This document shows positions 10,137 to 25,810 of a stretch of 25,810 bases of DNA, one piece after another. Where the stretch lies: positions 1-25,810 of IMG/VR virus record IMGVR_UViG_3300036770_000716. The stretch is one strand, 5' to 3'. Below the pieces are notes generated by a model. The model saw only the letters and a program-made list of their open reading frames with translations, searched no databases and was not told the origin of the DNA. Origin of the DNA: a virus. Numbering within the stretch: position 1 is the first letter of the stretch; each line of letters begins with the position of its first letter. The position numbers and the translations under genes were made by a program.

Positions 10137-11657
10137 CTAGTAATACGCCGCTTTGCGGCCTGATTTAAAGAATCTGGGTTCGTCTGGTTCATCGCTAGGC
10201 AACGTAATGAACCCACCATTTCTAAAGCGTAACAGTGCCTGCGTCATCGTGTCCACGTAGTCATCGTGCTCCCCAACCGGGAACGCAACCACTTCCTCGA
10301 TCACATCTCTGGCCCACCGCCTATCTGGTGCCCAGACCGCCCCGCTTGCAAAAAAATCCGCTACCGCATTGACCCGCGCTATCTTGTCATTACCCCGGCT
10401 TGGCGTGAACTCATCAACCGGTATCCCCATCCTACGCAGTTCTTGTATTAACGGCGCGCCTGCTGCCTTTTTTTCCACCAAAAACGCGTCTGGGTTCCAT
10501 TCTTTCCACTGTTTATACGCCACTTCCTTTAACTCTGGAAACTCCATCCGGTCTTTAAACGCATCGAGCAACATCAGGCTTGGCCTGTTGCCCTCTTCTT
10601 CGTTATACCAGACACCCCAGGTTGTACACGCCGTATAGTCAGCGGTGGTCTTGGCTTCGTGCGCCGTATCCCAGGACTGAATAATAAACTCGCATGGCGG
10701 CGGATCGTCGTGCTCCCAGATTCTCCAGTGCTGTCTCTTAATAAACGCAGCCGAGTCTGCCGTGGGCTGCTGCATATACTGGGCGTTCCAATACCTCGGG
10801 TCCATCGCAGCTTTTTTCTGCTTTAGCTGCTCCACGGGCCACTGCTCGGGCCAGAGCGACTTCTCCCGCTCCGTGTTCTCAAACAATATGGCTGGCAGTT
10901 CTACGATCTCCCACGGATCTGCGTCTGGGTTTCTCGCCTGAAACGTCAAGAGCCTACCCGTCAGATCAACCAGCGACCACCTAGTCATAATCACCAGGAT
11001 CGCACCCCCTGGCATCAGACGTTGCAACGGACCAGTCTGGAACCACGACCACGCATTATCAAACGTAGCCCTGGAGTTCGCCTTTATATCCTGTTCAGAA
11101 TGTGGGTCGTCAATAACAAATAAGTCAGCACCACGACCAGCCAGCGCTCCGCCCACACCCACTGCGTAATACTGACCGCCAGCCGCTGTAGACCATTTTC
11201 CTGCCGCCTTTTGGTCATCTGCCACAAGAGTTCCTGGGAATACATTGCGATAGTCCTCCCCCTCGATCAGATTTCGTACCCGCCTACCAAAATCCTCTGA
11301 CAACCCCGCCGTGTGGGTTGCCATAATGATCTTCTTCTCTGGGTATTGCCCCAGAAACCATGCAGGAAACAGGTAAGAAGAGAACTCTGACTTACCCATA
11401 CGGGGCGCGATGTTGATAATCACGCGTTTTTTCTTACCCGAGGCCACATCTGCGAAGATTTTCGCCAGTTTTCTGTGGTGCGCCCCCTCTTTGAACCCTG
11501 GATAGACCTCCTTGGCAAAGGAAATCATGTCCCCACGGGCGTTTTTTAACCGCAGACGCCTCTGTTGCTCCTCCAACTCCTCTAAAAACTCGTACTTCTG
11601 CTGTGGCGACATGCCTGCCAGCAGATTCTGGATCTCCGCGTCACTCAGACGGTTCAT
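10137..11657 (-). CDS. terL: Terminase large subunit
   Basis: 506 residues. The ATPase has Walker A APRMGKSE at 84-91, a following ATHTAGL motif at 113-119, Walker B LFVIDDPHSE at 179-188 and a coupling motif VIMTRWS around 222. The C-terminal nuclease has QSWDTA around 334 and a HDDYVDTMTQAL segment around 468, giving the acidic residues expected for an RNase H-like headful or cos nuclease. The protein pumps DNA into the prohead through the portal. It overlaps the small-terminase candidate by 17 bases. All key motifs look intact. Confidence 0.96.
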   Translation of the reverse strand: MNRLSDAEIQNLLAGMSPQQKYEFLEELEEQQRRLRLKNARGDMISFAKEVYPGFKEGAHHRKLAKIFADVASGKKKRVIINIAPRMGKSEFSSYLFPAWFLGQYPEKKIIMATHTAGLSEDFGRRVRNLIEGEDYRNVFPGTLVADDQKAAGKWSTAAGGQYYAVGVGGALAGRGADLFVIDDPHSEQDIKANSRATFDNAWSWFQTGPLQRLMPGGAILVIMTRWSLVDLTGRLLTFQARNPDADPWEIVELPAILFENTEREKSLWPEQWPVEQLKQKKAAMDPRYWNAQYMQQPTADSAAFIKRQHWRIWEHDDPPPCEFIIQSWDTAHEAKTTADYTACTTWGVWYNEEEGNRPSLMLLDAFKDRMEFPELKEVAYKQWKEWNPDAFLVEKKAAGAPLIQELRRMGIPVDEFTPSRGNDKIARVNAVADFFASGAVWAPDRRWARDVIEEVVAFPVGEHDDYVDTMTQALLRFRNGGFITLPSDEPDEPRFFKSGRKAAYY

Positions 11658-12237
11658 TTTCTTCTACGTCTGTGACGTTCTCGTCGTCTTTCGGCGCGTC
11701 AATCGTATTCTGTATAGCTAGGAGCTTCTCTTTAATCTTGGCGTCTAACTCTGAATCAGACAATTCTGTCTTCTTCACCTCAATCCTGTCCGTAAACAGC
11801 CCCACCTCCGTCACGCGGCCTAGCAACTCTAGCGCCTTTAGACGAATTCTGGCGTCTGGGTGGTCGGTCTCCTCCAAAATCTTAGCCACCGCCATACCCC
11901 GGATCTCTTTGGCCTGCTCAACAAACGCCCAGTCATAGGCGGTCAGCATCCCAACCAGCTTCTTAACCGCCGGGGGTACAGTGACTTTCGCCACCGCGTT
12001 CTTTGCCTCGGCTGGTGTTGCCACCAATGCCTTAAACGCATCACGGGCCTGATTCTCTTGCGCTGTCTGAAGCACCTCTTCATCCGTCCGCGCGCCTAAT
12101 TCTTCTAACCAGTCCGTCGTTTCTATCTGCCCTTGCAGCAGATCTGTTGCCGAGAGCTTTTTCTCAGGCGTAAAGGATTCTCTGGGTGCAGTCAGCACCT
12201 CGGGTTCGTACTCGATCTCCAACAAATGTTCTAACAC
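11641..12237 (-). CDS. Putative terminase small subunit
   Basis: 198 residues from a GTG at 12237 with GGGAG 8 bases upstream; no ATG in frame lies between this point and the upstream stop. The middle is helical (KKLVGMLTAYDWAFVEQAKEIRG) with RIRLKALELLGRVTEVGLF near 130-150, which resembles the small-terminase HTH/oligomerisation region; the ends are acidic. Position directly upstream of terL and a 17-base overlap support the call. Similarity to a named family is not certain. The start region is unusual because another small frame (12164-12319) with a better ribosome site overlaps it. Confidence 0.65.
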   Translation of the reverse strand: MLEHLLEIEYEPEVLTAPRESFTPEKKLSATDLLQGQIETTDWLEELGARTDEEVLQTAQENQARDAFKALVATPAEAKNAVAKVTVPPAVKKLVGMLTAYDWAFVEQAKEIRGMAVAKILEETDHPDARIRLKALELLGRVTEVGLFTDRIEVKKTELSDSELDAKIKEKLLAIQNTIDAPKDDENVTDVEENEPSE

Positions 12238-12400: not shown

Positions 12401-12457
12401 TTACTTTGTCAAAGATTTGACAATAACTATTTTTATTTTTACAAATATTTTTAGCAT
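12401..12457 (-). CDS. Possible 18-aa leader peptide
   Basis: ATG at 12457 with AAAGGAGG eight bases before it, one of the strongest ribosome sites in the window, followed by 18 codons (MLKIFVKIKIVIVKSLTK) and a stop. The peptide is hydrophobic and basic. Its 3' end covers the TTGTCAAA / TTTGACAA palindrome. Short frames with strong start sites ahead of a late operon could act as leaders. It may also be a chance frame in AT-rich DNA. Confidence 0.35.
   Translation of the reverse strand: MLKIFVKIKIVIVKSLTK
12406..12423. promoter_or_regulatory. Inverted repeat TTGTCAAA-GA-TTTGACAA
   Basis: Perfect 8-bp arms with a 2-base spacer. A further copy of the arm, TTTGACAAA, is at 12520-12528, and the same octamer TTGTCAAA forms the -35 area of the promoter at 19106. 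The right arm contains a consensus -35 hexamer TTGACA (12417-12422). It may be an operator for a dimeric regulator, or overlapping promoter elements. Confidence 0.5.
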
Positions 12458-12687
12458 TGGCGTTTCCTCCTTTGTTGTATTTATCGTGGGACGAGGGGGT
12501 GGGGTGGATTTGCCACAAATTTGACAAAGTGTGGAGCGTGGTTGCGAAACACTGTTCTTGCCGCGCCGCTGCACCGTCACATATTTGGGGGGTCACCCTG
12601 GGGTGGGGTCGCAAAACGGCAAAAACGGGTCAATAGAAAAATCTCTTATGTTAAAATATAGGTGTTGGTTGGGATGGCCCAGCCAGC

Positions 12688-12709
12688 CTTCGGGTGACAA
12701 GCCCCGAAG
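12688..12709. other. Hairpin before the first plus-strand gene
   Basis: 7-bp perfect stem CTTCGGG / CCCGAAG with an 8-base loop, three bases before the 20-bp palindrome at 12713. No T run follows, so it is not a standard terminator. It would be in the 5' untranslated part of the first plus-strand transcript and might affect its stability or translation. Confidence 0.5.
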
Positions 12710-12712
12710 CCC

Positions 12713-12732
12713 TTTGCAACACATGTAGCAAA
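12713..12732 (+). repeat. 20-bp palindromic element, copy 1 (centre CA)
   Basis: TTTGCAACACATGTAGCAAA. The arms TTTGCAACA and TGTAGCAAA pair except for one A:A position. It lies 18 bases before the ATG of the gene at 12751 and next to its ribosome site. Four more copies occur at 13200, 13443, 14745 and (inverted) 16276, differing only in the middle two bases. Likely a binding site for a dimeric protein; the AACAnnTGTA core is close to TACAnnTGTA sites of BlaI/CopY-type repressors, which is an analogy only. Confidence 0.8.
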
Positions 12733-12750
12733 CTTACTAGGAGAAACACC

Positions 12751-13140
12751 ATGAAATACGCAAACGAGTGCAAGACCTACGGTTCATTCCTCAAAGCAGG
12801 CGCGGCGATGCGAGACGCTATTGCCAAGCATTTGAGGAAAGACAATTCACTGCCCGATGATTTTGTCAGTGAATTGGCAGTAACCCACGCGGCACACTAT
12901 GGTTGCGCAGTCGAGCAAAACAAAGACGGCGCGTGGAAGTTTAAGGATGCGCAAGGCGAGCGGCACGCCGCCGCGCAGATGCAATGGGGTCGCACGATTG
13001 ATCCTCACCACAAACGCGTTCGCAGTAACCGTGGCGGTGCGCGCGATGTCAACCGCAAAGATCCTGTCAGTGAGTTGATAGCAGGCTTTTGGGATCTCAC
13101 CGCAAAACAACGCGCAGATTTCCTCGCTCGCATCAAGTAA
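12751..13140 (+). CDS. Hypothetical protein, 129 aa
   Basis: First gene of the rightward set. ATG at 12751 with AGGAG nine bases before it; an earlier ATG at 12694 would read through the hairpin and palindrome and is unlikely. The protein starts MKYANECKTYGSFLKAGAAM, has a stretch KFKDAQGERHAAAQMQWGRT in the middle and ends with DLTAKQRADFLARIK. It is a mixed charged, probably soluble protein. I do not recognise the family. The 20-bp palindrome just upstream suggests repressor control, consistent with an early gene. Confidence 0.8.
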   Translation: MKYANECKTYGSFLKAGAAMRDAIAKHLRKDNSLPDDFVSELAVTHAAHYGCAVEQNKDGAWKFKDAQGERHAAAQMQWGRTIDPHHKRVRSNRGGARDVNRKDPVSELIAGFWDLTAKQRADFLARIK

Positions 13141-13166
13141 TTGACAAGATTGTGCGGCTCACGAGT

Positions 13167-13186
13167 GGCGCGGGATGCTTCGCGCC
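13167..13186. other. Hairpin GGCGCG / CGCGCC upstream of palindrome copy 2
   Basis: 6-bp GC stem with the 8-base loop GGATGCTT, 13 bases before the second 20-bp palindrome. A stem with an 8-base loop also precedes copy 1, so the hairpin plus palindrome arrangement is repeated. No T run, so not a clear terminator. Confidence 0.45.
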
Positions 13187-13199
13187 TATTCCAAACCTC

Positions 13200-13219
13200 T
13201 TTGCAACACCTGTAGCAAA
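13200..13219 (+). repeat. 20-bp palindromic element, copy 2 (centre CC)
   Basis: TTTGCAACACCTGTAGCAAA, identical to copy 1 except one central base. It lies in the gap between the genes at 12751 and 13273, 53 bases before the second start codon. Confidence 0.8.
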
Positions 13220-13272
13220 GCGCAGTAAAACCCAACCGCAGTACTCACAATCAACCACTAGGAGATTCAACC

Positions 13273-13440
13273 ATGTCCAAAACCTTCAAAGACTCACGCA
13301 CCACCCGCAACCTCGTCAAAACCGACAAGCCCAGCAAGGCCCCTATTCAGGCCTATAAGCGGAAGAGAACTAAAGAGATATACCGCCTAGATCCCACCTG
13401 GAAGAGCGGCTTAGAGCACCGCCTAGGGGCCGACGATTGA
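13273..13440 (+). CDS. Small basic hypothetical protein, 55 aa
   Basis: ATG at 13273 with AGGAG nine bases upstream. The peptide (MSKTFKDSRTTRNLV, then YKRKRTKEIYRLDPTWKSGL) is basic and probably partly disordered at the N-terminus. No known domain. It stands alone between two copies of the 20-bp palindrome (13200 and 13443), so it may be controlled from both sides. A DNA- or RNA-binding role is possible but based only on charge. Confidence 0.7.
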   Translation: MSKTFKDSRTTRNLVKTDKPSKAPIQAYKRKRTKEIYRLDPTWKSGLEHRLGADD

Positions 13441-13442
13441 GC

Positions 13443-13462
13443 TTTGCAACAGATGTAGCAAA
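13443..13462 (+). repeat. 20-bp palindromic element, copy 3 (centre GA)
   Basis: TTTGCAACAGATGTAGCAAA, two bases after the stop of the 55-aa gene and at the left edge of the non-coding region that carries the TGGAC repeats. No gene starts within 370 bases downstream. Confidence 0.8.
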
Positions 13463-13463
13463 C

Positions 13464-13510
13464 CCCCTCCTTGCTTTGCGTATCACAAACTTACTGGCAG
13501 TAAGGAGGGG
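13464..13510. other. Long inverted repeat with nested palindrome
   Basis: 9-bp arms CCCCTCCTT (13464-13472) and AAGGAGGGG (13502-13510). The loop contains TTACTGGCAGTAA, itself a palindrome with a one-base centre that ends in the right arm. GGGTC-AAAAAA-GACCC follows. The structure could be a cruciform or RNA fold next to the candidate origin, or a termination structure for the preceding short gene. Confidence 0.5.
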
Positions 13511-13524
13511 TCAAAAAAGACCCT

Positions 13525-13840
13525 CGGACAAATGTCCACCACTTTTGGGTTTTGTCCACCACACTGGACACGCGCAAACGGCTTGCCGCTGTCCTGCGTC
13601 CACCAAAGCGTCTACTACTACTACTAAAAATAATTTTATATATGTATGTATGGAGGGGTGTACAAGTGGACACATCCGCGTCTGGAAAATTTTTACCTCA
13701 GCCTTCCCTGTTTTTGTTTTTAATTTTTGTGGGTATGGTGTACGCAATCCGCTCAAACTGCGATACTATGCGGGTTCTACGCTGTCACGACGCGTGGACA
13801 TTTCCCAAAAACCCTGGACGCACTGGACACAAATATGGAC
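13525..13840. other. Candidate replication origin: TGGAC repeats and AT-rich block
   Basis: Within about 315 bases the pentamer TGGAC or its complement occurs nine times (13534, 13554, 13565, 13598, 13667, 13795, 13815, 13824, 13836), mostly as TGGACA(C) or GTGTCCA-like forms in both orientations; fewer than one is expected by chance. Between the clusters lies an AT-rich stretch (13617-13650) with TTTTATATATG. Iterated sites plus an easily melted region are the usual look of a phage origin. The last copy is the start codon region of the gene at 13835. No gene is otherwise seen in 13463-13834. Confidence 0.5.
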
Positions 13841-14617
13841 ATTCACATCTGCACGACCTGTAATGAGTCAAAACCACGGGCGGATTTCACCCGCCTAGCC
13901 ACCCTTGCGCAAACCCGCTCGTGGCTCCGAAACCCCAACGCACAACGCCGCCTCACCTATCACGGCGCAGAGTGCAACGCCTGCTTCAACAAATCCAAGA
14001 GAACCCCGCTCGATATGTCGCCCTCAGAGTACGCTCGGCGGCTGAAGAAGGAGGGCAAGAGCCAGCACTACATCGATCTATTTGTCGCAGACCGTGTGGC
14101 CCACGGTAAGAAGCGCGCCTCTGCCGCAGGCATCAAAGGTATTCAGGTTCGGCAGGCGCCCATGTACAAGGCGATCTGCGATTCTCTCAGTGAGTTAATA
14201 GAAAAGCTAAGGCAACGCTACAACTACATGCAACGCACCCACGGCGACAAGGGGGCGCTGGCGTTCCTCGACTTCGCGCTTGCCCAGGCCATGCTGGTGC
14301 GTATGTCGGTCAAGGAGAAGTACCGCAAAGGTGGGTTCATGCCCGACTCGTGGCAGGAGTATGTGACCGATGACGCGCGGGAGGAACTACACAAACTCTT
14401 CGACACCATAGACCCGCTCTTACGCAGTCGGTTCGACACCTTCCTAATAGAGTTTGAGTACCAGTTGACGAACCCTTCTTCTAAACAAGTTAAGGATATC
14501 GTTGACCGATGGGCCGAGGCCAAAGGTGCGTTGACGCCTGACGATATGCCCAGGCGACCGCCTGAAGAACCCAAACCAGAACCACCGGCGTGGATGTTGT
14601 TCCCCTCACGCTCTTAA
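13835..14617 (+). CDS. Zinc-finger-like hypothetical protein, 260 aa
   Basis: Begins MDIHICTTCNESKPRADF, with C6/C9 and C47/C50 (ECNACF) forming a likely four-cysteine zinc site. The rest is helical and charged (NYMQRTHGDKGALAFLDFAL, then EELHKLFDTIDPLLRSRF), ending in a Pro/Glu-rich tail. The ATG at 13835 is chosen because the cysteine motif follows at once; an open frame to 13727 adds residues encoded by the TGGAC repeat region and has no ribosome site, but 13835 also has a poor one. Being next to the repeat array it may be an origin-binding or replication-related protein; that is inference, no replication motif is seen. Confidence 0.75.
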   Translation: MDIHICTTCNESKPRADFTRLATLAQTRSWLRNPNAQRRLTYHGAECNACFNKSKRTPLDMSPSEYARRLKKEGKSQHYIDLFVADRVAHGKKRASAAGIKGIQVRQAPMYKAICDSLSELIEKLRQRYNYMQRTHGDKGALAFLDFALAQAMLVRMSVKEKYRKGGFMPDSWQEYVTDDAREELHKLFDTIDPLLRSRFDTFLIEFEYQLTNPSSKQVKDIVDRWAEAKGALTPDDMPRRPPEEPKPEPPAWMLFPSRS

Positions 14618-14637
14618 TTTGTACCGACAGACCGCAC

Positions 14638-14675
14638 GCGGCAGGCGGCTCTGTTCGGGTGTCTACTTCTGCCGC
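14638..14675. other. Inverted repeat GCGGCAG / CTGCCGC upstream of gene
   Basis: 7-bp perfect arms (14638-14644, 14669-14675) separated by 24 bases, just upstream of the ribosome site of the gene at 14697. It may form a leader structure. No T run follows. Confidence 0.4.
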
Positions 14676-14696
14676 ATAACCAAAGGAGAAACAACC

Positions 14697-14876
14697 ATGA
14701 GCATGACCAAAAAGAACCTAGCCGTGTTGCTTACGGCAAAGAAGTTTGCAACATCTGTAGCAAAACCGGTTCAACCACGAACCAAAACAAAACCCGCCAG
14801 CGATGGCACGCGTGAGTGGCTCGCGTTCCGTATGGAGTGCGTGATGCTGACCAACAAAAAAGGAGGTGTGAAATGA
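14697..14876 (+). CDS. Small hypothetical protein, 59 aa
   Basis: ATG at 14697 preceded by AAAGGAGAAACAACC. The protein is lysine-rich (MSMTKKNLAVLLTAKKFATS) with a C-terminal EWLAFRMECVMLTNKKGG. A longer frame from 14619 lacks a start site. Codons 17-23 encode the 20-bp palindrome copy 4, so the site is retained in the coding sequence close to the 5' end. The stop overlaps the next start by ATGA and its last codons provide the AAGGAGG site of that gene. Confidence 0.7.
   Translation: MSMTKKNLAVLLTAKKFATSVAKPVQPRTKTKPASDGTREWLAFRMECVMLTNKKGGVK
14745..14764 (+). repeat. 20-bp palindromic element, copy 4 (centre TC), inside coding sequence
   Basis: TTTGCAACATCTGTAGCAAA within the first third of the gene at 14697, read there as Phe-Ala-Thr-Ser-Val-Ala-Lys. 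Conservation of all 18 non-central bases inside a coding region argues that the DNA site itself is selected. Confidence 0.8.
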
Positions 14877-15070
14877 GTACGAAGACCTATGAAGTCAGAG
14901 TAGGCAACTGCGAGCGGTATCTCGGGCATCTACAACCCAATATTGTGGTGCTGACGATGGAGGCAGACAACGAAGAAGACGCCGAGTCCAAAGCGTACGC
15001 GTACATGTACGCAGTGAAATGGGGCGGAGCAGATACCGACTGGTCAGTTTCAACTATCAAGGAGGTGTGA
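14873..15070 (+). CDS. Small hypothetical protein, 65 aa
   Basis: ATG at 14873 overlaps the upstream stop and has AAGGAGGTGTGAA before it. The protein (KTYEVRVGNCERYLGHLQ, then ADNEEDAESKAYAYMYAV) resembles short alpha/beta proteins of phages with an EEDA.SKA..YAY helix. No function known. The same ribosome-site sequence, AAGGAGGTGTGAAATGA, recurs before the next gene. Confidence 0.75.
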   Translation: MSTKTYEVRVGNCERYLGHLQPNIVVLTMEADNEEDAESKAYAYMYAVKWGGADTDWSVSTIKEV

Positions 15071-15071
15071 A

Positions 15072-15239
15072 ATGACCGTAGAAAAAATGATCATCAAGCG
15101 GACCGACGATGACTATTACGAGTTGTACGCCGACGAGCAGTTGCTCTACAAAACCGACGATCCCGAAGAGCTTGCGGCGATCTTGCATGAGTTATATCAA
15201 GGCGCACCACTCGTGCCGTATGTAAAGAAACCACAGTAA
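15072..15239 (+). CDS. Small acidic hypothetical protein, 55 aa
   Basis: ATG at 15072, one base after the previous stop, with AAGGAGGTGTGAA upstream. The sequence (MTVEKMIIKRTDDDYYELYA, then PEELAAILHELYQG) looks like a compact two-strand and helix fold. No known family recognised. Part of the chain of tightly packed small genes. Confidence 0.7.
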   Translation: MTVEKMIIKRTDDDYYELYADEQLLYKTDDPEELAAILHELYQGAPLVPYVKKPQ

Positions 15240-15252
15240 AGGAGAAACAACC

Positions 15253-15336
15253 ATGGGACAGATGATCTTTATTTTTTATTTCCTAGTGCTCACCGCATGC
15301 GGTGGGCTGATTCTTTTAAACATGTGGGGGGTGTGA
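15253..15336 (+). CDS. Very small membrane peptide, 27 aa
   Basis: ATG at 15253 with AAAGGAGAAACAACC upstream, the same strong start as the gene at 14697. The peptide (MGQMIFIFYFLVLTACGGL and on) is a single hydrophobic helix. A cysteine after LTA with GG could suggest a lipobox, but the peptide is too short for a normal lipoprotein. It fills the gap between 15239 and 15338 and its stop is followed one base later by the next ATG. Confidence 0.6.
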   Translation: MGQMIFIFYFLVLTACGGLILLNMWGV

Positions 15337-15337
15337 G

Positions 15338-15520
15338 ATGAGTGAGATTTGGTATGTCAACGACGGCAACGGTGGGTTCCACTGGGTTGACCATGTGTTT
15401 GAAACAAAGATAGAAGCAGAGCGCTATGCACGGGAGTGTTTTCCCGATGAGAGTGAGGACGAGCGGTACGCCCGTATCCATTGCAAACCAGTAGTTTCTT
15501 ACAAGGAGGTGCAGTCATGA
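15338..15520 (+). CDS. Small hypothetical protein, 60 aa
   Basis: ATG at 15338 with GGGGGTGTGAG before it. Residues include IWYVNDGNGGFHWVDHVFET and KIEAERYARECFPDE, giving a strand-rich start and an acidic helix. No family recognised. It overlaps the next gene by 4 bases (ATGA) and carries that gene's AAGGAGGTG site. Confidence 0.7.
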   Translation: MSEIWYVNDGNGGFHWVDHVFETKIEAERYARECFPDESEDERYARIHCKPVVSYKEVQS

Positions 15521-15858
15521 AAACGAATGAACTACACGGGCCAGCCCTTGATTGGGCGGTGGCGAAGTGTGAGGGGGTGTATACCCCGAGCGTGGATACC
15601 GATATTGACGGGACAAAGCGCATCAACTACGGTGGGATGTATCCCGAATGGTCAACCGATTGGGCGCAAGGTGGGCCGATTATTGAGCGGGAGGGGATTG
15701 GGGTGTTCAAGTATTCAAGCGGTCCAGAATGGAATGCCCGGACAACGGTTTACCCGCCCAAATACGTTAAAGGCCCAACACCCCTGATCGCAGCAATGCG
15801 GTGCTATGTCGCAAGCAAACTTGGAGACGAGGTAGAGATACCGGAGGAATTGAAATGA
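15517..15858 (+). CDS. DUF2591 / NinX-like protein, 113 aa
   Basis: The N-terminus ELHGPALDWAVAKCEG, the middle STDWAQGGPIIEREGI and the C-terminal PTPLIAAMRCYVASKLGDEV are the three conserved blocks of the DUF2591 family (NinX-like), widespread in phages, of unknown function. Length is normal. The ATG at 15517 has AAGGAGGTG upstream and overlaps the preceding stop; the longer frame from 15481 is not needed. In lambdoid phages such genes lie in the early/nin region, which agrees with an early role here. Confidence 0.9.
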   Translation: MKTNELHGPALDWAVAKCEGVYTPSVDTDIDGTKRINYGGMYPEWSTDWAQGGPIIEREGIGVFKYSSGPEWNARTTVYPPKYVKGPTPLIAAMRCYVASKLGDEVEIPEELK

Positions 15859-16076
15859 CCGCAAATAATGACGAGTACTTAGATGTTGTAAACAAACTGC
15901 ACGCAACGCTAGAGGGTGCAGACCTTGACGATGTTGTGCCAGCCACGGCGATGGTGCTCGGGCTGGCGGGTGTGATGGCAGGCGCAGATAAGAAACTTCT
16001 GATCTCGTTCGTCGTTGACACCATCGACAGAGTCTACAGAGACGCAGACAAACTTGTGAGAAAGGACATCAAATGA
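15855..16076 (+). CDS. Small hypothetical protein, 73 aa
   Basis: ATG at 15855 overlaps the upstream stop (ATGA) and has CCGGAGG upstream. The sequence contains DVVPATAMVLGLAGVMAGAD, an Ala/Gly-rich helical hairpin, and DTIDRVYRDADKLVRK at the end. It resembles short helical phage proteins without known function. An earlier start at 15801 lies in the middle of the upstream gene and is unlikely. Confidence 0.75.
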   Translation: MTANNDEYLDVVNKLHATLEGADLDDVVPATAMVLGLAGVMAGADKKLLISFVVDTIDRVYRDADKLVRKDIK

Positions 16077-16216
16077 GAGTCAATTCAACCGAACGCCGCA
16101 GGCGTATCCGCAGGGCGCAGGAGTTGCGCGCCGTGTTCATAGATTTCATCGGGGTGATGGGGCTGGCCTTTGCCTTTGGCCTGTTCTACATGATCCTGAT
16201 GATGCTGTCGTATTAA
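16073..16216 (+). CDS. Small membrane protein, 47 aa
   Basis: The ATG at 16073 overlaps the previous stop (ATGA). The N-terminus is strongly basic (TERRRRIRRAQELR) and is followed by one hydrophobic helix (IGVMGLAFAFGLFYMILMML). By the positive-inside rule the N-terminus is cytoplasmic. Function unknown; in an early gene set, small membrane proteins may affect host envelope or superinfection, but nothing shows this. Confidence 0.65.
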   Translation: MRVNSTERRRRIRRAQELRAVFIDFIGVMGLAFAFGLFYMILMMLSY

Positions 16217-16240
16217 TAAACTAACCACAAGGAGAACAAC

Positions 16241-18019
16241 ATGGACATCATGTCTAAAATAGATTCCAAAGATGCTTTGCTACAAGTGTTGCAAACCGCT
16301 ACCACTGACGAGTACTGCCACTTCATACGCATATGTAATCTGTACGACGACGGCGGTATGCGCAACGAACCTGGCGGTGGCAAGTTGATCCACGAAATAC
16401 AGGTCGACGGCGAGCCGGTGTTCGGCGCTGACGCACCGAGGTTCAACGGGTATGACTTCGCAAGCAAACTCAGCGAGGCGTATCAGTCTGGCTCAGACAT
16501 CAACGACAGCGGCGAGAGGTCGGCGTTTCGTATCGCTAACACCATTGCGTATATGCGTGAGGCGATGCCTGAGTCTGCGTTCTGGGTGTGGCGTGAGAAC
16601 GCACGCTTTGTGATGGAGTACTACAAACCACCTGCGTTTCTCGCAACGCTACGCAAGATAGGCAAGGACAACCCGCACCTGTGGTGGCACTTCCCACACA
16701 TATCAACCGAAGACCCCACGATGGTGGCCTACACCCCATCGCCTGAGTACGGCAAGCGTGACCGTCAGGTGCGCACAAAGGTCGGTCGCTACCTCACACA
16801 GTTCTACGGTGAGACGCTGACACAAAACCAGATCCGCTCTCTTGCCGATGGCGTCAAGCAGTTGGACTTCCATATGTCCAAGGATGCGGATGATTTCGAG
16901 GCTATCTACAGTATCCGTGAGGATGAGTGTGGGCTGGCCTCGTGTATGCAGGGCGATGTGTACTCGTTCGACAGTGACATACATCCAGCGCGGGTCTATG
17001 CGTCTGGCGACTTTGCACTAGCGTGGCTGACTGACCGCGTGATGAACGACCGTGTGGTGGCGCGTGCCATCGTTGCGTTTCCTGATGATCCTGCCAAGGC
17101 ACACTTCGTTCGCGTCTACGGTGATGAGTCCAACGCGTTGCTCGATATGTTGGTGGAGCGTGACTACCGGCGAGAGTCTGTGTACCAATACGACCCACGC
17201 CTGCTTGTGGTTGAGCACGACGACGGGCAGTATGTCATGCCCTACATCGATGGCAATGACAAGCATGTGAGCATACATAGGATCGATGGCAGGCGGTACT
17301 GGCTCGTTGCCAACTCCGACGGTGAACACAAGAGCAGTGCCACCAATACCAACGGGCTGACGGAGCGCATGGGTGGCAGGTGCGAGGTGTGTGGTGACTA
17401 CACAGAGGAGGACGAGGACGATATGCCCTACTCTGACTACCACGGCATACGCATCGGCAGATGTTGCACTGATCAATACCTGTGGGCACACTCACGGCGT
17501 GGCAACGAAGACCATATCGAGAGCGACTCATGCGTGTACTGCGAGACCGATGGCGAGTATTACCACGACCAGTACCTTGACTACTACGACATCGTGTACT
17601 GCGAGCATGACGGTGACTATCGGCATATCGATGAGTGCGTGCAAGACCCCAGCGGCAATTGGATGCGTACCGACGACGCCATCGAGGTGATCAACAATGC
17701 CGAGGGTCAGGTGTACTTCCACGAGTCAGACGCAGACAGTGCGGTGGGTGTCGTAGTGGTTGCGCCTGATACTGTCGAGGGGTTCCCCTACCAGACAATC
17801 GTGTGGGCTGATGACATGCCGGAGTTGTTTGCCGAGGCGTATCTCAACGCACCACGGTTCACGGATGACTACGGCAACGAGCGTGTCGTTGGCTTCGTTA
17901 CCCTGCGGGATCTCGTGCGTTCGTATGGTGACATGGAGGGTGCATCCAAAGCGTTCCGTTATATGACCAACTTCCGTACGCATTTCTTCTACCACGCCAC
18001 CTTTCAGGCATTGCGCTAA
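16241..18019 (+). CDS. Large hypothetical protein with cysteine-rich domain, 592 aa
   Basis: ATG at 16241 with AAGGAGAACAAC upstream. Middle part (about 215-280) has ECGLASCMQGDVYSFDSD, then HPARVYASGDFALAWL. I recognise the SCM plus P.RVYA..D.ALA pattern from phage hypothetical proteins of unknown role. From C381 there are several CxxC pairs (C381/C384, CC near 409-410, C432/C435, then others near 455 and 470) in an acidic, Tyr/His-rich context; this looks like two or more zinc-binding units. The C-terminal part has VGFVTLRDLVRSYGD. No catalytic motif is recognised. The fifth 20-bp palindrome lies within its codons 12-19. Large and probably early. Confidence 0.85.
   Translation: MDIMSKIDSKDALLQVLQTATTDEYCHFIRICNLYDDGGMRNEPGGGKLIHEIQVDGEPVFGADAPRFNGYDFASKLSEAYQSGSDINDSGERSAFRIANTIAYMREAMPESAFWVWRENARFVMEYYKPPAFLATLRKIGKDNPHLWWHFPHISTEDPTMVAYTPSPEYGKRDRQVRTKVGRYLTQFYGETLTQNQIRSLADGVKQLDFHMSKDADDFEAIYSIREDECGLASCMQGDVYSFDSDIHPARVYASGDFALAWLTDRVMNDRVVARAIVAFPDDPAKAHFVRVYGDESNALLDMLVERDYRRESVYQYDPRLLVVEHDDGQYVMPYIDGNDKHVSIHRIDGRRYWLVANSDGEHKSSATNTNGLTERMGGRCEVCGDYTEEDEDDMPYSDYHGIRIGRCCTDQYLWAHSRRGNEDHIESDSCVYCETDGEYYHDQYLDYYDIVYCEHDGDYRHIDECVQDPSGNWMRTDDAIEVINNAEGQVYFHESDADSAVGVVVVAPDTVEGFPYQTIVWADDMPELFAEAYLNAPRFTDDYGNERVVGFVTLRDLVRSYGDMEGASKAFRYMTNFRTHFFYHATFQALR
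16276..16295 (-). repeat. 20-bp palindromic element, copy 5 (inverted, centre CT)
   Basis: On the plus strand TTTGCTACAAGTGTTGCAAA; its complement TTTGCAACACTTGTAGCAAA matches the other four copies outside the central pair. It is inside the 5' end of the 592-aa gene, about 35 bases after the start codon, and is the only copy in this orientation. Confidence 0.8.
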
Positions 18020-18044: not shown

Positions 18045-19079
18045 ATGACAAAGGCAAACACAGTGACATCCACAACCACCCCCACATCCACCGAGTTCTA
18101 CGACGAACGACTGCACGAGATGCTCAGATACAAACGCCCACACGGGTCGAAGTCTGAGGCCCAGTGGATCGAGCGGTTCATCATGCCGTATGACCCCCTG
18201 AACATTGACGACATGGCGCTGGTCGTCACGGTACCTCACGCAGATGGACGCCACCCCAAAACGCTCTTCTCGTGCCACACCGACACCGTGCACCGCAACG
18301 AGGGCAAGCAACGCATCAAGTACGACCGCACCAAGCAGACCTACTACAAGACCGACGGTGAGCCTTTGGGTGCTGACGATGCGGCTGGTGCGTGGGTCAT
18401 GCTGGAGATGATCGACGCCGGTGTGCCTGGGTGTTACTTCTTCCACCGTGCCGAGGAGTGCGGCGGTCTGGGGTCATCGCATATCTTCAATAAGTACGGC
18501 GACATTCTCTACAAGTTCAACCGTGCCATTGCGTTCGACAGACGCGGGTCAACCGATGTCATCACACACCAGGGCTGGTCACGGTGTTGTTCCGATGCCT
18601 TTGCCCAGGCCCTAGCCGATGCGCTCAACACCAACGAGGCCAACATGTACCTGCCAGACGACAGCGGTGTGTTTACCGACACGGCGAACTACACCGACAT
18701 CATCCCCGAGTGCACCAACCTGTCATGCGGCTACGACCACGAGCACAGTGGGGCTGAGACGCTACACCTGCCCAGCCTTTTCAACCTACGCGACGCCTGC
18801 CTTGCTATCGAGTGGGACGACCTGCCCACCGACCGAGACCCCACGGTGACCGAGTACAAGGAGGACAAGTGGTCTACCTTCTACAAGTCGTATGACAAAC
18901 AAACTGCCAGTAACGACCATACCCTGTACGACATGACCAAGGCCGAGATGTACGACATGGCGTACACCGACCCAGAGACCTTCGTCATGCTGGTACGCGC
19001 CGAGTTGTTCGGTGAGCCGGTGGAGTCCAGCTACGGTGGGGGCTATGCCTACGATGACACTATCTACAACAAACTGTAA
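18045..19079 (+). CDS. Dizinc metallopeptidase-like protein (M28/M20/M42 type), 344 aa
   Basis: A full set of candidate metal ligands is visible in order: H78 and D80 in SCHTDTVH, D111 in LGADDAAGAW, E137/E138 in RAEECGGLGS, D165 in AFDRRGSTD and H234 in CGYDHEHSGAETLH. In M28/M20/M42 aminopeptidases these positions bind two zinc ions and the first Glu is the general base. The length of about 340 fits M42/M28. No signal peptide, so it would act in the cytoplasm. ATG has TAGGAGAACAAC upstream. Substrate unknown; peptide, amino acid or a modified group are all possible. Function call by motif is strong, activity not shown. Confidence 0.85.
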   Translation: MTKANTVTSTTTPTSTEFYDERLHEMLRYKRPHGSKSEAQWIERFIMPYDPLNIDDMALVVTVPHADGRHPKTLFSCHTDTVHRNEGKQRIKYDRTKQTYYKTDGEPLGADDAAGAWVMLEMIDAGVPGCYFFHRAEECGGLGSSHIFNKYGDILYKFNRAIAFDRRGSTDVITHQGWSRCCSDAFAQALADALNTNEANMYLPDDSGVFTDTANYTDIIPECTNLSCGYDHEHSGAETLHLPSLFNLRDACLAIEWDDLPTDRDPTVTEYKEDKWSTFYKSYDKQTASNDHTLYDMTKAEMYDMAYTDPETFVMLVRAELFGEPVESSYGGGYAYDDTIYNKL

Positions 19080-19105
19080 ATAAGAAAGGAGGTTTCAGAT
19101 ATTGC

Positions 19106-19134
19106 TTGTCAAATGTTTTACTATGTCCTATAAT
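19106..19134 (+). promoter_or_regulatory. Sigma70-type promoter before the AAA/VWA module
   Basis: TTGTCA at 19106-19111, 17 bases, then a perfect TATAAT at 19129-19134, 38 bases before the ATG at 19172. It is the best bacterial promoter I can see in the window. The -35 region is part of TTGTCAAA, the same octamer found in the divergent region at 12406. The gap (19080-19171) also has an unused AAAGGAGG at 19085. Confidence 0.8.
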
Positions 19135-19171
19135 CTTTTACCAGTGCAGTTAATCTAAAAAGGAGAACAAC

Positions 19172-20311
19172 ATGGATGCAAAAGACTTCCTATCGCACGA
19201 CCAAGTTATCGATCTGATCAAGGCAGTGGGCCACAAGCGCACCGTCCTTGTGATGGGTGAGAACGGCACCGGCAAGACATGGCTACACAAAACGCTCAGC
19301 GCTGATCCGTTCTTCAAAGACTTCGTCAAGCCCACGCCCATCGACTGCACGCAATTGTCTGATGGTTCGCTCTTCATGCCTGACATCGACCGTGAGCGGG
19401 GGGTGTCTCGTGAGTTGCCTAACGAGCGGATGGGTCTGAGCTTTGCCAACCAGCGTGGCGGTGACAGCGAGCGCCCTGTGCTGGTCTGCTTCGACGAGGT
19501 TGCCAAGGTGCCGCAGTATGTGAAGAACATGATCGCGCCCATCATGTATGACCGCCGTATCGGTACGTTCTTCATGCCCACGGGGTCGGTGGTGTTCGGG
19601 CTGACTAACCTTGCCATCGAGGGTCTAGGTGACAGCCTTGCCGCCCACCTGCGTAACCGGCTCATTGTGGTGAAGATGCGCAAGTCTACGGCCCAGGAGT
19701 GGATCAATAACTTTGCCATACCCGTGGGGTTGAACCCCATCCTGATCGCCTGTGTGGAGGAGAACCCGCAGGTGTTGGACTCGTTCGTTGACTACTTACC
19801 AGGAGGCAAATATGCAGGCAAAGACCAAGCAAAAGACAACCCGTCTATCTACAATCCACAAGAAGTCCAAGACGCCTATGCGTCGCCGCGCACCCTACAT
19901 GCGGCCTCTGACATCCTCGATGCCTACGCCCTGGGGGGATTCGATAGCACCACTCTTGAACAAGCGCTTACTGGCACAGTGGGCAAAGCATTTGCCTCTC
20001 TCCTGATGTCGTTCATACGGTTCGGTGCGCAGGTGCCACGCAATGCCGAGGTGCTCCAAGATCCTGGCTACGCGCCAGTGCCAAGCAATAAGATCGCACA
20101 ACAGATCATCGTGTTCCGGTCTATTGCCCAGACACGCACGCGTGACGATGCCGAGGCCTACACAACATACATCGCACGATTGGAGCCGGAGGTGCAGTCG
20201 TTGTTCCTGCGCCGTGTGACCGAGTCCAAGAGTGAGTCGATGGGGCTGTACACCACGGTCAGTAAGTTTGGCGAGATGCTGACCGACAACCGTCTGTTCT
20301 TCAAGGCGTAA
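19172..20311 (+). CDS. MoxR/CobS-like AAA+ ATPase, 379 aa
   Basis: Walker A GENGTGKT at 29-36, Walker B VLVCFDEV at 103-110, sensor 1 GLTN around 143-146 and an arginine pair RNR at 161-163. The layout, with IDCTQLSDGSLFMPDI after Walker A and a following VKNMIAPIM helix, fits the MoxR/CobS/NorQ-type AAA+ clade, which usually works with a VWA partner. The partner gene follows 2 bases later. AAGGAGAACAAC lies before the ATG. Such ATPases remodel proteins or insert metals; in phages, CobS-like genes are known but their role is unclear. Confidence 0.92.
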   Translation: MDAKDFLSHDQVIDLIKAVGHKRTVLVMGENGTGKTWLHKTLSADPFFKDFVKPTPIDCTQLSDGSLFMPDIDRERGVSRELPNERMGLSFANQRGGDSERPVLVCFDEVAKVPQYVKNMIAPIMYDRRIGTFFMPTGSVVFGLTNLAIEGLGDSLAAHLRNRLIVVKMRKSTAQEWINNFAIPVGLNPILIACVEENPQVLDSFVDYLPGGKYAGKDQAKDNPSIYNPQEVQDAYASPRTLHAASDILDAYALGGFDSTTLEQALTGTVGKAFASLLMSFIRFGAQVPRNAEVLQDPGYAPVPSNKIAQQIIVFRSIAQTRTRDDAEAYTTYIARLEPEVQSLFLRRVTESKSESMGLYTTVSKFGEMLTDNRLFFKA

Positions 20312-20313
20312 TC

Positions 20314-21498
20314 ATGACGACCCAAATGCTGACACAGTGGGACCGTATGACTGCGCGTCAACGCATCACGGCGGTGAACGTTGACATCCTAAATCACAAA
20401 CAGTTCAGTGTGTTGTCTGGTGCGGTGATGATGGGCGGCGTGGAGGTCAAGGACATACCGACTGCCGCGACCAATGGCAAGGATATTTTCTACGGGGAGG
20501 CGTTCGCCCTGGCACAGACACGCAAGCAGTTGCGCTATGTGCACATCCACGAGGCGCTACACATCGGCCTGCGTCACTGCCTGGACTACGCCGACATCGT
20601 GGCGAAGTACCCCAACGAGTCGAACAAGGCGATGGACTATGTGGTCAATGGGTTCATCGAGCAGACTGACCCAGGGTTCTCGTTTGTTGAGCGCCCCACA
20701 TCGCCTGCCCCCCTTGTCGATAGTAAGTATTTCGGGCGGTCGTTTGTCGATGTGTTGCAGGATCTCCTGCGCAACAACCAGGACCAGAGTCAAAGCCAGA
20801 GTCAACAGACGTTGGATACGCACATGCCTGCGCCTGCCGATGCTGATATGGATGAACTGCGCCAAGAAGTACAGGACGCCATGAACCACGGCGAGATGGT
20901 GCAGAAGCGACTGGCTGGTGCCGATGGCAAGTGTGATGTTCTCAGTGGGTTTGGTGTAAACCGTGAAACCGACTGGCGTAGCGCGTTGCGGGAGTGGTGG
21001 GAGGAAGTTTCTTCGGGTGACGAATATTCTCGTTACAACCCACCCAACCGTAGGTTTCTGCCGCTCGGCATCATCATGCCCACGCACTTTGACATGGCGT
21101 CTGGGGAAATCCACATCAACTGCGACACATCCGGGTCAATGGCTGGTGTCTATCCCGTGATCTTCGGTGAGATCGCCAACATCTGTAAGCAGATCAACCC
21201 CACGCTGGTTCGCATCATCTGGTGGGACACACGGGTGCGCGGTGAGCAGACGTTTGTGCAGGGTCAGTACGACGCCATCGCACAACAACTGGCACCCAAG
21301 GGTGGCGGCGGTACATCTCCGCAGTGCGTTGTTCAGCATGTGCAGTCCAAGCAGTACAAACCATCGGGGGCCATATGGCTGACAGATGGATACATCGATG
21401 CCTGCCCATCATCGGTGTGCAGTAAAGAGTTGTGGGGCGTGATTAACAATGACCATTTCAAACCCGCGCACGGCAAAACCCTGCGCATCTACTCTTAA
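20314..21498 (+). CDS. VWA-domain protein with HExxH metallopeptidase-like motif
   Basis: 394 residues. N-terminal part has HIHEALHIGLRH with H79-E80-x-x-H83 and a following MDYVVNGFI, the pattern of predicted metallopeptidases of the DUF2201 type. After an Asn/Gln/Ser-rich linker (near 150-165) comes a VWA domain: MIDAS start INCDTSGSM with D271-S273-S275, and LTDGYID with D358. A metal-binding VWA plus AAA+ ATPase forms a MoxR-VWA pair, similar to CobS/CobT and NorQ/NorD. The start is 2 bases after the ATPase stop. It may recruit the substrate; the target is unknown. Confidence 0.9.
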   Translation: MTTQMLTQWDRMTARQRITAVNVDILNHKQFSVLSGAVMMGGVEVKDIPTAATNGKDIFYGEAFALAQTRKQLRYVHIHEALHIGLRHCLDYADIVAKYPNESNKAMDYVVNGFIEQTDPGFSFVERPTSPAPLVDSKYFGRSFVDVLQDLLRNNQDQSQSQSQQTLDTHMPAPADADMDELRQEVQDAMNHGEMVQKRLAGADGKCDVLSGFGVNRETDWRSALREWWEEVSSGDEYSRYNPPNRRFLPLGIIMPTHFDMASGEIHINCDTSGSMAGVYPVIFGEIANICKQINPTLVRIIWWDTRVRGEQTFVQGQYDAIAQQLAPKGGGGTSPQCVVQHVQSKQYKPSGAIWLTDGYIDACPSSVCSKELWGVINNDHFKPAHGKTLRIYS

Positions 21499-24198: not shown

Positions 24199-24209
24199 AG
24201 GGGTGAGAA

Positions 24210-24815
24210 ATGAGCATCGAGGCTATGAAGCAAGCATTAGAAGAGTTAAAACCTTTTGCAAGCACAGAAGTGTGGGATAAGTTACCGGCGAGTGCAAAGG
24301 TCGCAATGTTAAATATTGAAACCGCGCTATACAAAGCCATAGAGCAGGCAGAGAAGCAAGAGCCTGTGGCGTGGATTGTAGACGGAGGAATAAAAGTAAG
24401 GCTGGATATGGCGGGAAAACTGTATTACTCCGAAGCCAATGTTTATGCAGCACCTGTACACGCCAGCGACATATCGCAAGAACGTGTCGATGAAACGGCA
24501 AAAGGTAAACATGAGTGGGCCATGCAAAAAATGGTTGAGGAAAACGAAAGGTTAGGTTTGTATAACGAACCAGTTGCGTGGATCAAAAAGGAAGAACTAG
24601 CCTACATGTCAGCGGTTGTGGGGCTAGGCGGTATTGCATGGCAAACGAATCTCGGTCTCAAGCCCGAGGCTGGGGATGTGCCCCTCTACGTCGCACCACC
24701 AAAACGTGAATGGGTTGGGCTGGACAACGATATACCCAGCTTGGGTTTAGTTACCGAGGAGTTTTATAACGGGATGCTTTGTGCAGAAGACATATTGAGA
24801 AAGAGAAACACATGA
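24210..24815 (+). CDS. Hypothetical protein with EPVAW and WVGL repeats, 201 aa
   Basis: ATG at 24210 with AAAGGGGTGAG upstream. The sequence starts with a helix (MKQALEELKPFASTEVWDK), has EPVAWI twice (about 52 and 122) each followed by a short strand segment, and VPLYVAPPKREWVGL towards the end. I know this EPVAW...LY.APPKREWVGL layout from many phage hypotheticals of unknown function. It is the first of the C-terminal-sharing family in this cluster. The stop overlaps the next ATG (ATGA). Confidence 0.75.
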   Translation: MSIEAMKQALEELKPFASTEVWDKLPASAKVAMLNIETALYKAIEQAEKQEPVAWIVDGGIKVRLDMAGKLYYSEANVYAAPVHASDISQERVDETAKGKHEWAMQKMVEENERLGLYNEPVAWIKKEELAYMSAVVGLGGIAWQTNLGLKPEAGDVPLYVAPPKREWVGLDNDIPSLGLVTEEFYNGMLCAEDILRKRNT

Positions 24816-25087
24816 AAAAGATTACGGTCGTATGCCACAAAGACCATTTGCATGGCTACGAGGACTTTGAAGGTAAGTGCTTGTTGTGTGAAATGGAAAA
24901 ACTTTACGCTGAAATCAACCAAATCACCCATCAACTGTATGACTACCGAGCCGCCTTTATAAAAGCACGTGACCGTAAATGGGTTGGGCTGACACAAGCA
25001 GAGTTTGAAGAGACGGTTGATGGGTTAGATGATTTAGAAGACTGCTGGCAAGCCATCGAAGCAAAACTAAAGGAGAAGAACACATGA
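24812..25087 (+). CDS. Small protein with WVGLT / EAKLKEKN end, 91 aa
   Basis: The ATG at 24812 overlaps the previous stop; the longer frame from 24779 is not needed. N-terminal C8 and a CLLC pair at about 25-28 suggest a zinc site. The C-terminal half has RKWVGLTQAEFEE and ends EAKLKEKNT. The final codons carry AAAGGAGAAGAAC, the ribosome site for the next gene. Function unknown. The end is shared with the two following genes. Confidence 0.75.
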   Translation: MKKITVVCHKDHLHGYEDFEGKCLLCEMEKLYAEINQITHQLYDYRAAFIKARDRKWVGLTQAEFEETVDGLDDLEDCWQAIEAKLKEKNT

Positions 25088-25368
25088 AAAGATTTACTGC
25101 ATATCGAAGAGCCATAAGCCAACGTGACACGCACAACCACTATCAAAAGAATCCTGATGATGAACCACAATTTGAAGGTGTGATCTGGACTGACGGCACT
25201 GTGACTTTACGATGGCTTACTGCATGCACTTCACATTCGGTATGGGCGAACATTGAAGACTGCTTAAATATCCATGGGCACCCAGAATACGGCACCGAGA
25301 TTGTTTGGCATGACGGGCCTGCCCCGGAATGTTGGGAAGCAAAACTAAAGGAGAAGAACGGTGGCTAA
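25084..25368 (+). CDS. Small protein ending EAKLKEKNGG, 94 aa
   Basis: ATG at 25084 overlaps the previous stop (ATGA). The sequence starts MKRFTAYRRAISQRDTHN, has FEGVIWTDGTVTLRWLTAC in the middle, then HGHPEYGTEIVWHD and the shared EAKLKEKN end. The VIWTDGT..LRWLT segment followed by HGHPEYGTEIVWHD is a pattern I know from phage hypotheticals. No function known. Confidence 0.75.
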   Translation: MKRFTAYRRAISQRDTHNHYQKNPDDEPQFEGVIWTDGTVTLRWLTACTSHSVWANIEDCLNIHGHPEYGTEIVWHDGPAPECWEAKLKEKNGG

Positions 25369-25708
25369 ACCCATGACAAAAACCGAGTGGATGAACTGGG
25401 TTGAAGAGGCGTGGAACAAGGCCCAACAATCAGCGTGGGCAGAAAAAGGGCAGGAGTTTGAATGTGTTAAAGCAATTGATGTTGAAGCTGCGGCAGAGCA
25501 GTCCGACAACTATGCCGCTTTTCTTGCTGGCGTTAGGTTTGCAAGGGTTAATTTGCCCGCACCATCAAAAGAATGGGTTGGGCTGACGGATGAGGAGCGA
25601 GAACGAGTGCGTTCTAATGCTGGTTACAACCAATTTATGAGTGCTGGTGAATATGCAGAGCTTGTGCAACGGGCTACCGAAGCCAAACTAAAGGAGAAGA
25701 ACGCATGA
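25361..25708 (+). CDS. Small protein with WVGLT / EAKLKEKN end and GTG start, 115 aa
   Basis: GTG at 25361, overlapping the upstream gene by 8 bases, with AAAGGAGAAGAAC at good spacing; the ATG at 25373 is a possible alternative. Contains KTEWMNWVEEAWNKAQ, then KEWVGLTDEERERVRS and the ending RATEAKLKEKNA. Third member with the shared end. Function unknown. Confidence 0.7.
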   Translation: MAKPMTKTEWMNWVEEAWNKAQQSAWAEKGQEFECVKAIDVEAAAEQSDNYAAFLAGVRFARVNLPAPSKEWVGLTDEERERVRSNAGYNQFMSAGEYAELVQRATEAKLKEKNA

Positions 25709-25810
25709 ACTCACTACTTGATCAACGCATACAGAACGGCACCTACTGGTCTGGCTTCGTGCTAGGTATGTTTTCTATGTTGTTTCTAGTTCTTGCCATT
25801 GACCGCATGA
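25705..25810 (+). CDS. Small membrane protein, 5' end only
   Basis: The ATG at 25705 overlaps the previous stop (ATGA) and has AAAGGAGAAGAACGC upstream. About 35 residues are visible, with an N-terminal soluble part (NSLLDQRIQNG) followed by one hydrophobic helix (TYWSGFVLGMFSMLFLVLAI). The right edge cuts the frame before its stop, so length and role cannot be told. Confidence 0.6.
   Translation, partial: MNSLLDQRIQNGTYWSGFVLGMFSMLFLVLAIDRM

Follow-up and report, generated by a model that had tools for sequence, protein, structure and literature searches.

Five copies of one palindrome stand at the start of the early-looking region of a phage contig, and the question raised by this locus is which protein reads them. 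The window, meaning the whole stretch of 25,810 nucleotides that was analysed (IMG/VR virus record IMGVR_UViG_3300036770_000716, positions 1 to 25,810), was compared with related phages. From these sequence comparisons, the palindromes are probably the operators of the product of gene 1, the first early gene, which would be a dimeric, self-limiting silencer of the early genes with a diversifying specificity.

The dyads in the window and in related phages

The 20-mer TTTGCAACANNTGTAGCAAA was present five times in the window with 0 mismatches, whereas 100 dinucleotide-preserving shuffles gave on average 0.01 matches even when as many as 3 mismatches were allowed. The original prediction had described these five copies, their places and strands, the 18 of 20 fixed bases and the variable central pair, and all of this was confirmed, as was the location of three copies between genes beside starts or stops and of two in coding sequence near the 5' ends of genes. 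No sixth copy at up to 2 mismatches was present in this 25.8 kb contig.

12713-12732, plus strand: putative operator site 1, centre CA; intergenic, 18 bases upstream of the gene 1 ATG (12751)
13200-13219, plus strand: putative operator site 2, centre CC; between the gene 1 stop (13140) and the start of a 55-aa gene (13273)
13443-13462, plus strand: putative operator site 3, centre GA; intergenic, 2 bases past the stop of the 55-aa gene (13440)
14745-14764, plus strand: putative operator site 4, centre TC; within a 59-aa gene (14697-14876), near its 5' end
16276-16295, minus strand: putative operator site 5, centre CT; within a 592-aa gene (16241-18019), near its 5' end

An A was found at both position 6 and position 15 in all five copies; the arms are therefore imperfectly palindromic and the element is a dyad with one fixed mismatch. 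The sites fall in the first part of a plus-strand region whose start adjoins the terminase genes, which are transcribed divergently from it. Their operator-like look and their tie to gene starts in the early region agree with the earlier suggestion that they serve a dimeric regulator.

10137-11657, minus strand: terminase large subunit gene
11641-12237, minus strand: terminase small subunit gene (weak match)

A pattern scan of viral contigs returned 34 stretches, five of which were relatives by blastn or terminase, namely G001 (65 kb, mostly 87-98% identical), G002 (76%), G003 and G004 (both roughly 65-77%) and L007. The first four are also recorded as L048, L051, L052 and L053, and Planktothrix phage Pag-Yong1 as L136 and L139. 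Several copies were found in each of G001 to G004, in the same region as in the window, with the forms TTTGCTACA-CG and TTTGCKACA-CG in G003 and G004. The scan of relatives that had been proposed as a check thus found the element recurring and linked to gene starts. An equivalent of site 1 was present at the corresponding place in G001, G002, G003 and many other relatives, and site 5 was kept in G001, centre included. Site 4 had no G001 copy at its place, the G001 copy being inside the gene for a protein with a Zn motif instead. Reverse-complementing the third operator of the window gives exactly the third operator of G002, again including the centre.

The large terminase was used as a marker to collect 80 relative loci in a first round. 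A search for repeated dyads that assumes no sequence was given 64 of these (16 with less than 1 kb of early DNA were left out), and returned 20 clusters versus 0 in shuffles that keep single-base composition only. A second, wider search of 42 loci, for which six of the 64 were left out as shorter than 1.5 kb, gave 156 overlapping cluster calls versus 0 in shuffles, and 29 of the 42 loci had a cluster (L074, counted among them with a single pair, was not used as an operator). With the 16 loci found earlier, 45 of the 58 loci of at least 1.5 kb carried their own repeated dyad. The wider search found no cluster in 13 of the 42 (L007, L063, L076, L081, L085, L090, L091, L097, L103, L116, L117, L124 and L131). 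A second round added 150 loci, of which 35 had 1.3 kb of early DNA or less and 115 had more; automatic calling placed an operator in 93 of the 115 at a score of at least 30, the maximum in two-base-block shuffles being 20.

The dyad words were uniform within each phage and often unrelated between phages. Most members carried 2-10 copies in the early DNA covered, in one early cluster, and the dyad length was about 15-23 bp over the family. The sites lay at roughly conserved distances from the terminase start, at around 1.0 and 1.5 kb and, for others, at some 2-3 and 4.6 kb. In many comparisons between phages, both arms had been replaced. The half-sites, read from outer to inner, include TTTGCAACA, TTTGCGACA, TTTGGGACA, TTTGGCACA, CAGGAACA, GGCAGACA, CGGGGACA, GGGGTCA, TTGTTGACA, GGTGTTACA, TTTGTGTGC, ACGTTAT, GGACGGA, GGAGAGA and GGTGGAG. 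One word within a phage, with places kept and both arms replaced between phages, is the pattern to be expected from reading by a single sequence-specific dimer, but not from hairpins selected for pairing alone. In these terms the palindromes of the window represent one dialect within an operator set that varies between phages. Searches of open-licence literature showed no earlier description of these dyads.

Two features of the original prediction were not supported for the family as a whole. The BlaI/CopY operator is TACAnnTGTA, and the proposed likeness to it stands for the inner ACAnnTGT of the window's operator class, which is common to part of the family only; many relatives have TCA, AGA or other cores, and gene 1 has no Pfam match at E≤0.01. 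Confinement to the early region was seen in G001 (five copies in 65 kb, all within the early cluster), G009 and G011, whereas G010 and G013 had one extra match each at 2 mismatches; each of the five long records other than Pag-Yong1 had an early cluster, the match elsewhere in two of them being weak. In Pag-Yong1, CGGTTCAnnnTGAACCG with no more than 2 mismatches occurs 35 times over 64.6 of 65.0 kb; early as well as late regions have it, and so does the interior of an 8.3 kb gene.

Position relative to genes was assessed for 148 sites in 34 phages (L079 was skipped). A total of 53 sites were centred 15-45 bp upstream of a called start (random 0.074) and 93 were intergenic (random 0.23); in clustering ahead of starts they resemble stoperators. 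For Pag-Yong1, 17 of the 23 sites examined lay 10-70 bp upstream of annotated starts (random 0.10), several of them at -29 or -30.

The link between gene 1 and the operators

Gene 1 lies directly 3' of site 1. Homologues were found by iterated hidden Markov model (HMM) searches in 58 of 69 regions, and in the second round in 79 of the 93 operator loci.

12751-13140, plus strand: gene 1 (129 aa), candidate operator-binding early regulator by co-variation; model pLDDT 90.9; no family match
12961-12996, plus strand: gene 1 codons 71-82, with a predicted helix at 73-82; best co-varying segment in the first set
13835-14617, plus strand: gene for a Zn-motif (CxxC..CxxC) protein, weakly endonuclease-like; alternative binder candidate

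Among 36 non-redundant phages, operator distance was correlated with gene 1 distance (rho 0.404; partial given TerL 0.379). The corresponding values were 0.245 for TerL, 0.152 for TerS (35 phages), 0.338 for the portal protein (24), 0.338 for the Zn-motif protein (28), 0.311 for a VWA protein (12), 0.098 for a MoxR-like ATPase (13) and 0.266 for the 55-aa protein (10). When the proteins were scanned in segments of 12 residues, gene 1 peaked with 0.494 at residues 71-82 (partial given TerL 0.487) and was near 0 in its C-terminal tail, and the best segments elsewhere reached 0.300 (Zn-motif), 0.323 (TerS), 0.328 (TerL) and 0.372 (portal). The scan, unlike whole-protein distance, separates gene 1 from the Zn-motif protein. 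The gene 1 peak was reached in 0 of 500 permutations (their maximum was 0.316), counts which, here and below, are not p-values because the permutations take no account of shared ancestry, itself a point that weakens the case for gene 1. The helix remained correlated with the operator when the rest of gene 1 was held constant (0.418; 0/1000 permutations) and when the most divergent class and Pag-Yong1 were left out (0.539; 0/1000). By TerL distance, the link was 0.696 below 0.20 (87 pairs) and 0.459 at 0.20-0.30 (499 pairs).

The link was replicated in a second set of 49 phages, left from 79 once 20 close to members of the first set and 10 close to one another had been dropped. The pre-set residues 71-82 gave 0.248 (0/1000 permutations) and TerL gave -0.023; the partial given the rest of gene 1 was 0.200 (4/1000), and the best segment was residues 68-79 (0.306). 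In a held-out test, seven of the 18 loci entered had no usable gene 1 (L155, L156, L157, L159, L076, L090 and L074). The remaining 11 were phages not used in the operator matrices; for each, the 50 matrices were ranked and the one belonging to the phage with the closest helix was looked up. It came 1-3 of 50 in seven (L007, L131, L116, L117, L124, L103 and L081), among which L007 and L131 share their helix with set members and the rows of L116 and L117 are identical.

Within the dyad, the helix of the first set (31 phages) tracked the inner four bases best (0.503) and the outer bases too (0.432), the latter being tracked also by residues 27-66 (0.448) and 83-95 (0.407). In the window's helix class (15 phages) these two segments tracked the outer bases with 0.571 and 0.574 (0/500 each). 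By eye, helices of the form KT...[RN]D went with ..TCA half-sites in nine of nine rows (L077, L127, L300, L280, L303, L196, L201, L198 and L190); the reverse rule fails, as L136, L208, L260 and L269 have ..TCA with other helices. An [RQK]GG arm was tried as a marker of outer TTTG and rejected, since the two went together in 10/12 versus 2/24 phages of the first set but in 1/2 versus 2/47 of the second.

The window's gene 1 had no Pfam (E≤0.01), PHROG or PDB sequence match. Three of 35 members had one weak PHROG match each, without description, and divergent members had Pfam matches only below the cut-off. A tblastn search of 50,697 phage records gave no match at E≤0.1, though the HMM detects gene 1 in Pag-Yong1 (UMO76074.1). 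The AlphaFold model, built with 35 homologues (pLDDT 90.9), has helices at 4-25 and 36-50, strands at 53-56 and 62-65, a helix at 73-82 and helices at 105-114 and 118-128. The best VIA matches (Z 4.7, 3.9 A, 74 aligned; Z 3.8, 5.7 A, 88 aligned) are too weak to be relied on and do not demonstrate a new fold, and the Foldseek rows include a BlaI chain only at E 2.9 and probability 0.04. The class of L115, L080, L104 and L105 aligns with other gene 1 proteins by profile (probability 90.8, E 1.2e-6) and was modelled as all-helical (pLDDT 81.7), so that the family may include a domain replacement.

Several results weigh against gene 1 as the reader of the dyads. The portal protein reached 0.338 on its 24 phages, and on the 28 phages that have the Zn-motif protein the latter gave 0.338 and gene 1 0.344, so whole-protein distance cannot tell these two apart; the Zn-motif partial was 0.289 given gene 1 and 0.305 given TerL. 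The helix link was weak at TerL distances of at least 0.40 (0.123, 35 pairs), and in the window's own helix class the helix was uncorrelated with the operator (0.108, reached by 243 of 1000 permutations). In the replication set the inner half-site was tracked equally by residues 1-26 (0.237), residues 27-66 (0.218) and the helix (0.234), and the outer half-site was barely tracked; as the segment signals differ between the sets, the assignment of parts of the protein to particular bases is a proposal. Four of the 11 held-out phages failed, with ranks of 8, 12, 37 and 39 (L085, L063, L091 and L097). Gene 1 was assigned by place rather than by HMM in L104, L115 and L120, it was not found at E≤1e-4 in 14 of the 93 second-round operator loci, and fold searches with it gave nothing at E≤0.001. 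Over the family, gene-internal sites like sites 4 and 5 were rarer than random (11 of the 148 sites lay 0-60 bp inside a gene; random 0.149). No dyad set was found in the parts examined of HTVC027P, HTVC023P, 023Pt_psg01 and DSL-LC04 (terminase 47-53% identical) and CRP-901 (33%), nor in the contigs L155, L156 (terminase 81%), L157 and L159 from metagenome-assembled genomes or single cells. In these four contigs the HMM found no gene 1 in the upstream DNA covered (only 0.9 kb in L155); L156 is possibly a prophage. Finally, sites 1 and 2 lie right next to gene 1, and exchange as a cassette could contribute to the link.

This adjacency also belongs to a rather unlikely alternative, in which the binder is the Zn-motif protein, another phage protein or a host regulator, and gene 1 was co-exchanged as a cassette or is the partner of the binder. 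The near-equal co-variation of the Zn-motif protein speaks for it, as do the operator copies within its homologues in G001, G003 and G004. However, the local signal was highest in residues 71-82 of gene 1, it survived control for the rest of the gene and recurred in the second set, and linkage alone would have raised the C-terminal tail too. The helix-turn-helix (HTH) products that the original prediction had put forward as binders did not hold up. All four were found in G001, but among six other relatives, all of which carry dyads, only G013 had one (the 22872 product); for one of the seven relatives, G003, the record is a fragment of 15.7 kb and may stop short of the HTH genes. With these proteins missing from most of the relatives tested, they were rejected as a family-wide binder. 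Separately, the operator copy in the Zn-motif gene was seen to overlap the codons of the second CxxC (CNTCSK in G001, CYTCSK in G003, with a matching place in G004); the window's Zn-motif gene has no operator copy, site 4 being in the next gene instead.

Proposed mechanism and the leader of gene 1

If gene 1 encodes the reader, its product, made from the first gene of the early operon, would bind the dyad as a dimer. The third helix would read mainly the inner half-site (ACA in the window), and residues 27-66 and a basic arm at 83-95 would help to read the outer bases (TTTGC in the window). Since site 1 lies in the gene 1 leader, gene 1 synthesis is proposed to be self-limiting. The other sites, most of them a short way before the following early genes, would block RNA polymerase at or shortly after initiation, and early transcription would fall in a stoperator-like manner once enough gene 1 protein had accumulated. 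Protein and sites would change specificity together between phages, and the regulator should therefore act on its own phage and on relatives that share its code. The comparisons themselves show the sites, their positions, their uniform sequence within a phage, their replacement between phages and the statistical link to gene 1; from these we infer that the protein would bind, dimerise, repress and act as a roadblock, and that it might confer immunity.

12649-12657, plus strand: extended -10-like TGTTAAAAT, 55 bases upstream of site 1, found by eye; TGNTATAAT in several relatives
12417-12445, plus strand: TTGACA-17-TACAAA promoter-like block, within a second dyad
12664-12709, plus strand: leader RNA hairpins, between the -10-like block and site 1

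In aligned leaders of 13 relatives of the window's group, a TTGACA-like block was seen in most, plus an extended -10-like block, which lay 27-68 bases upstream of site 1 in the 12 tested (in L063, upstream of a fixed end point). If these promoters are real, site 1 is downstream of the -10, which favours a roadblock, the mode proposed for stoperators, over promoter occlusion. A simple consensus promoter scan lists a site at 12406-12433 that overlaps the block at 12417-12445, and not that block itself; its promoter-like sites were no commoner than in shuffles (3 versus 3.1). No promoter-like block at a fixed distance was seen for 18 Pag-Yong1 sites. The second dyad, of TTGTCAAAnnTTTGACAA type (12405-12445), overlaps the TTGACA block; dyads of this type are recognisable in most of the 13 relatives while the operator changes, and are repeated in L068, L069 and L075.

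The leader was predicted to form one or two hairpins in all 12 relatives tested (z -1.7 to -4.9, single-base shuffles), and in L061 and L069 the second hairpin ends in a T run just upstream of the operator. Control at the level of RNA, with the dyads as mRNA hairpins beside the ribosome-binding site that are bound or cut, is unlikely. The many sites 15-45 bp upstream of start codons, and the several Pag-Yong1 sites at -29 or -30, would fit it, but the broken pairs on the mRNA strand (96 of 1300) showed no G-U enrichment (20 G-U versus 31 A-C), A faces A at positions 6 and 15 in all five copies of the window, there is no start near site 3, and half-sites are uniform in sequence within a phage beyond what pairing needs.

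Lifestyle and relation to known systems

Tyrosine recombinase, resolvase and ParA families (PF00589, PF00239 and PF13614) were found in none of eight records of 58-65 kb, which are possibly incomplete; profile controls were detected in 14, 10 and 14 of 14. The phages look non-integrating, within the limits of records that may lack parts. A pattern-limited scan of 84,980 genomes gave only six terminase relatives. The lack of a ParA-type ATPase in these eight records separates the system from ParABS partition. It is very unlikely that the protein bound to its dyads acts in partition, in DNA condensation, in packaging or in replication instead of transcription; multi-copy dyads near packaging genes and the matches over the whole Pag-Yong1 genome would suit such a role, and the missing ParA family and the tie of the sites to gene starts argue against it. 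That the dyads are functionless repeats spread by recombination or copying, as the inverted third site of G002 and the gain and loss of site 4 might suggest, is hardly credible given their symmetry, their link to starts and their co-variation with gene 1.

In the available portions of two reports on cluster A mycobacteriophages such as L5 and TipsytheTRex (PMC6550527, PMC9283540), one site occurs in many copies in short intergenic gaps, motifs differ between related phages along with the repressor, and the repressor has a site near its own gene. The phages studied here share the multi-copy intergenic sites, the change of motif along with a candidate regulator and the site near its own gene. 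The L5 stoperators are described there as asymmetric sites of 13 bp, to which a monomer with HTH domains binds, whereas dyads were found here in most relatives examined. The window's gene 1 matches no searched family, and its fold matches are too weak to decide for or against such a domain. Cluster A phages are temperate, with an integrase or parABS, which none of the eight records showed, and their sites are genome-wide; here most members have 2-10 in one early cluster, Pag-Yong1 with 35 being the exception. Membership in the mycobacteriophage stoperator system fails because site symmetry and lysogeny genes differ; by analogy, the system would work like multi-site operator or stoperator silencing. 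The T1-like lytic phages TLS, Stevie and T1 have intergenic 21-22-nt repeats upstream of starts that were likened to stoperators (PMC11447400, PMC4319613), a resemblance to the dyads in placement ahead of starts. The Stevie paper terms the role of the repeats in T1 and Stevie unknown (PMC4319613), and the portions available of these papers name no binding protein, whereas the dyads described here have a candidate. Among dimeric repressors with multiple operators in general, the co-variation would support one phage-coded reader of repeated dyads.

Other genes of the window were noted in passing. An M28 peptidase-like gene and a pair encoding a MoxR-like ATPase and a VWA protein lie 3' of the operator cluster (18045-21498); among seven relatives, the ATPase was present in five and the VWA protein in six. 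At 24200-25710 the end AKLKEKN recurs between adjacent small genes, as does a WVGL segment, which suggests duplication.

These comparisons extend a five-copy palindrome to a regulator-operator code that would be common to the family, change fast and comprise dozens of natural specificities; its candidate protein is not recognised by the family libraries searched. More tentatively, phages without detected lysogeny genes might possess a private early-silencing code, in which an undescribed small DNA-binding family and multi-copy operators co-diversify, driven by competition during co-infection. This could give a heteroimmunity-like exclusion without lysogeny, with a specificity readable from one helix for the inner bases and from flanking segments for the outer bases. 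The matched gene 1 variants and operators are a natural data set for rules of DNA recognition and, if the system acts as immunity, they would represent operator diversification without lysogeny.

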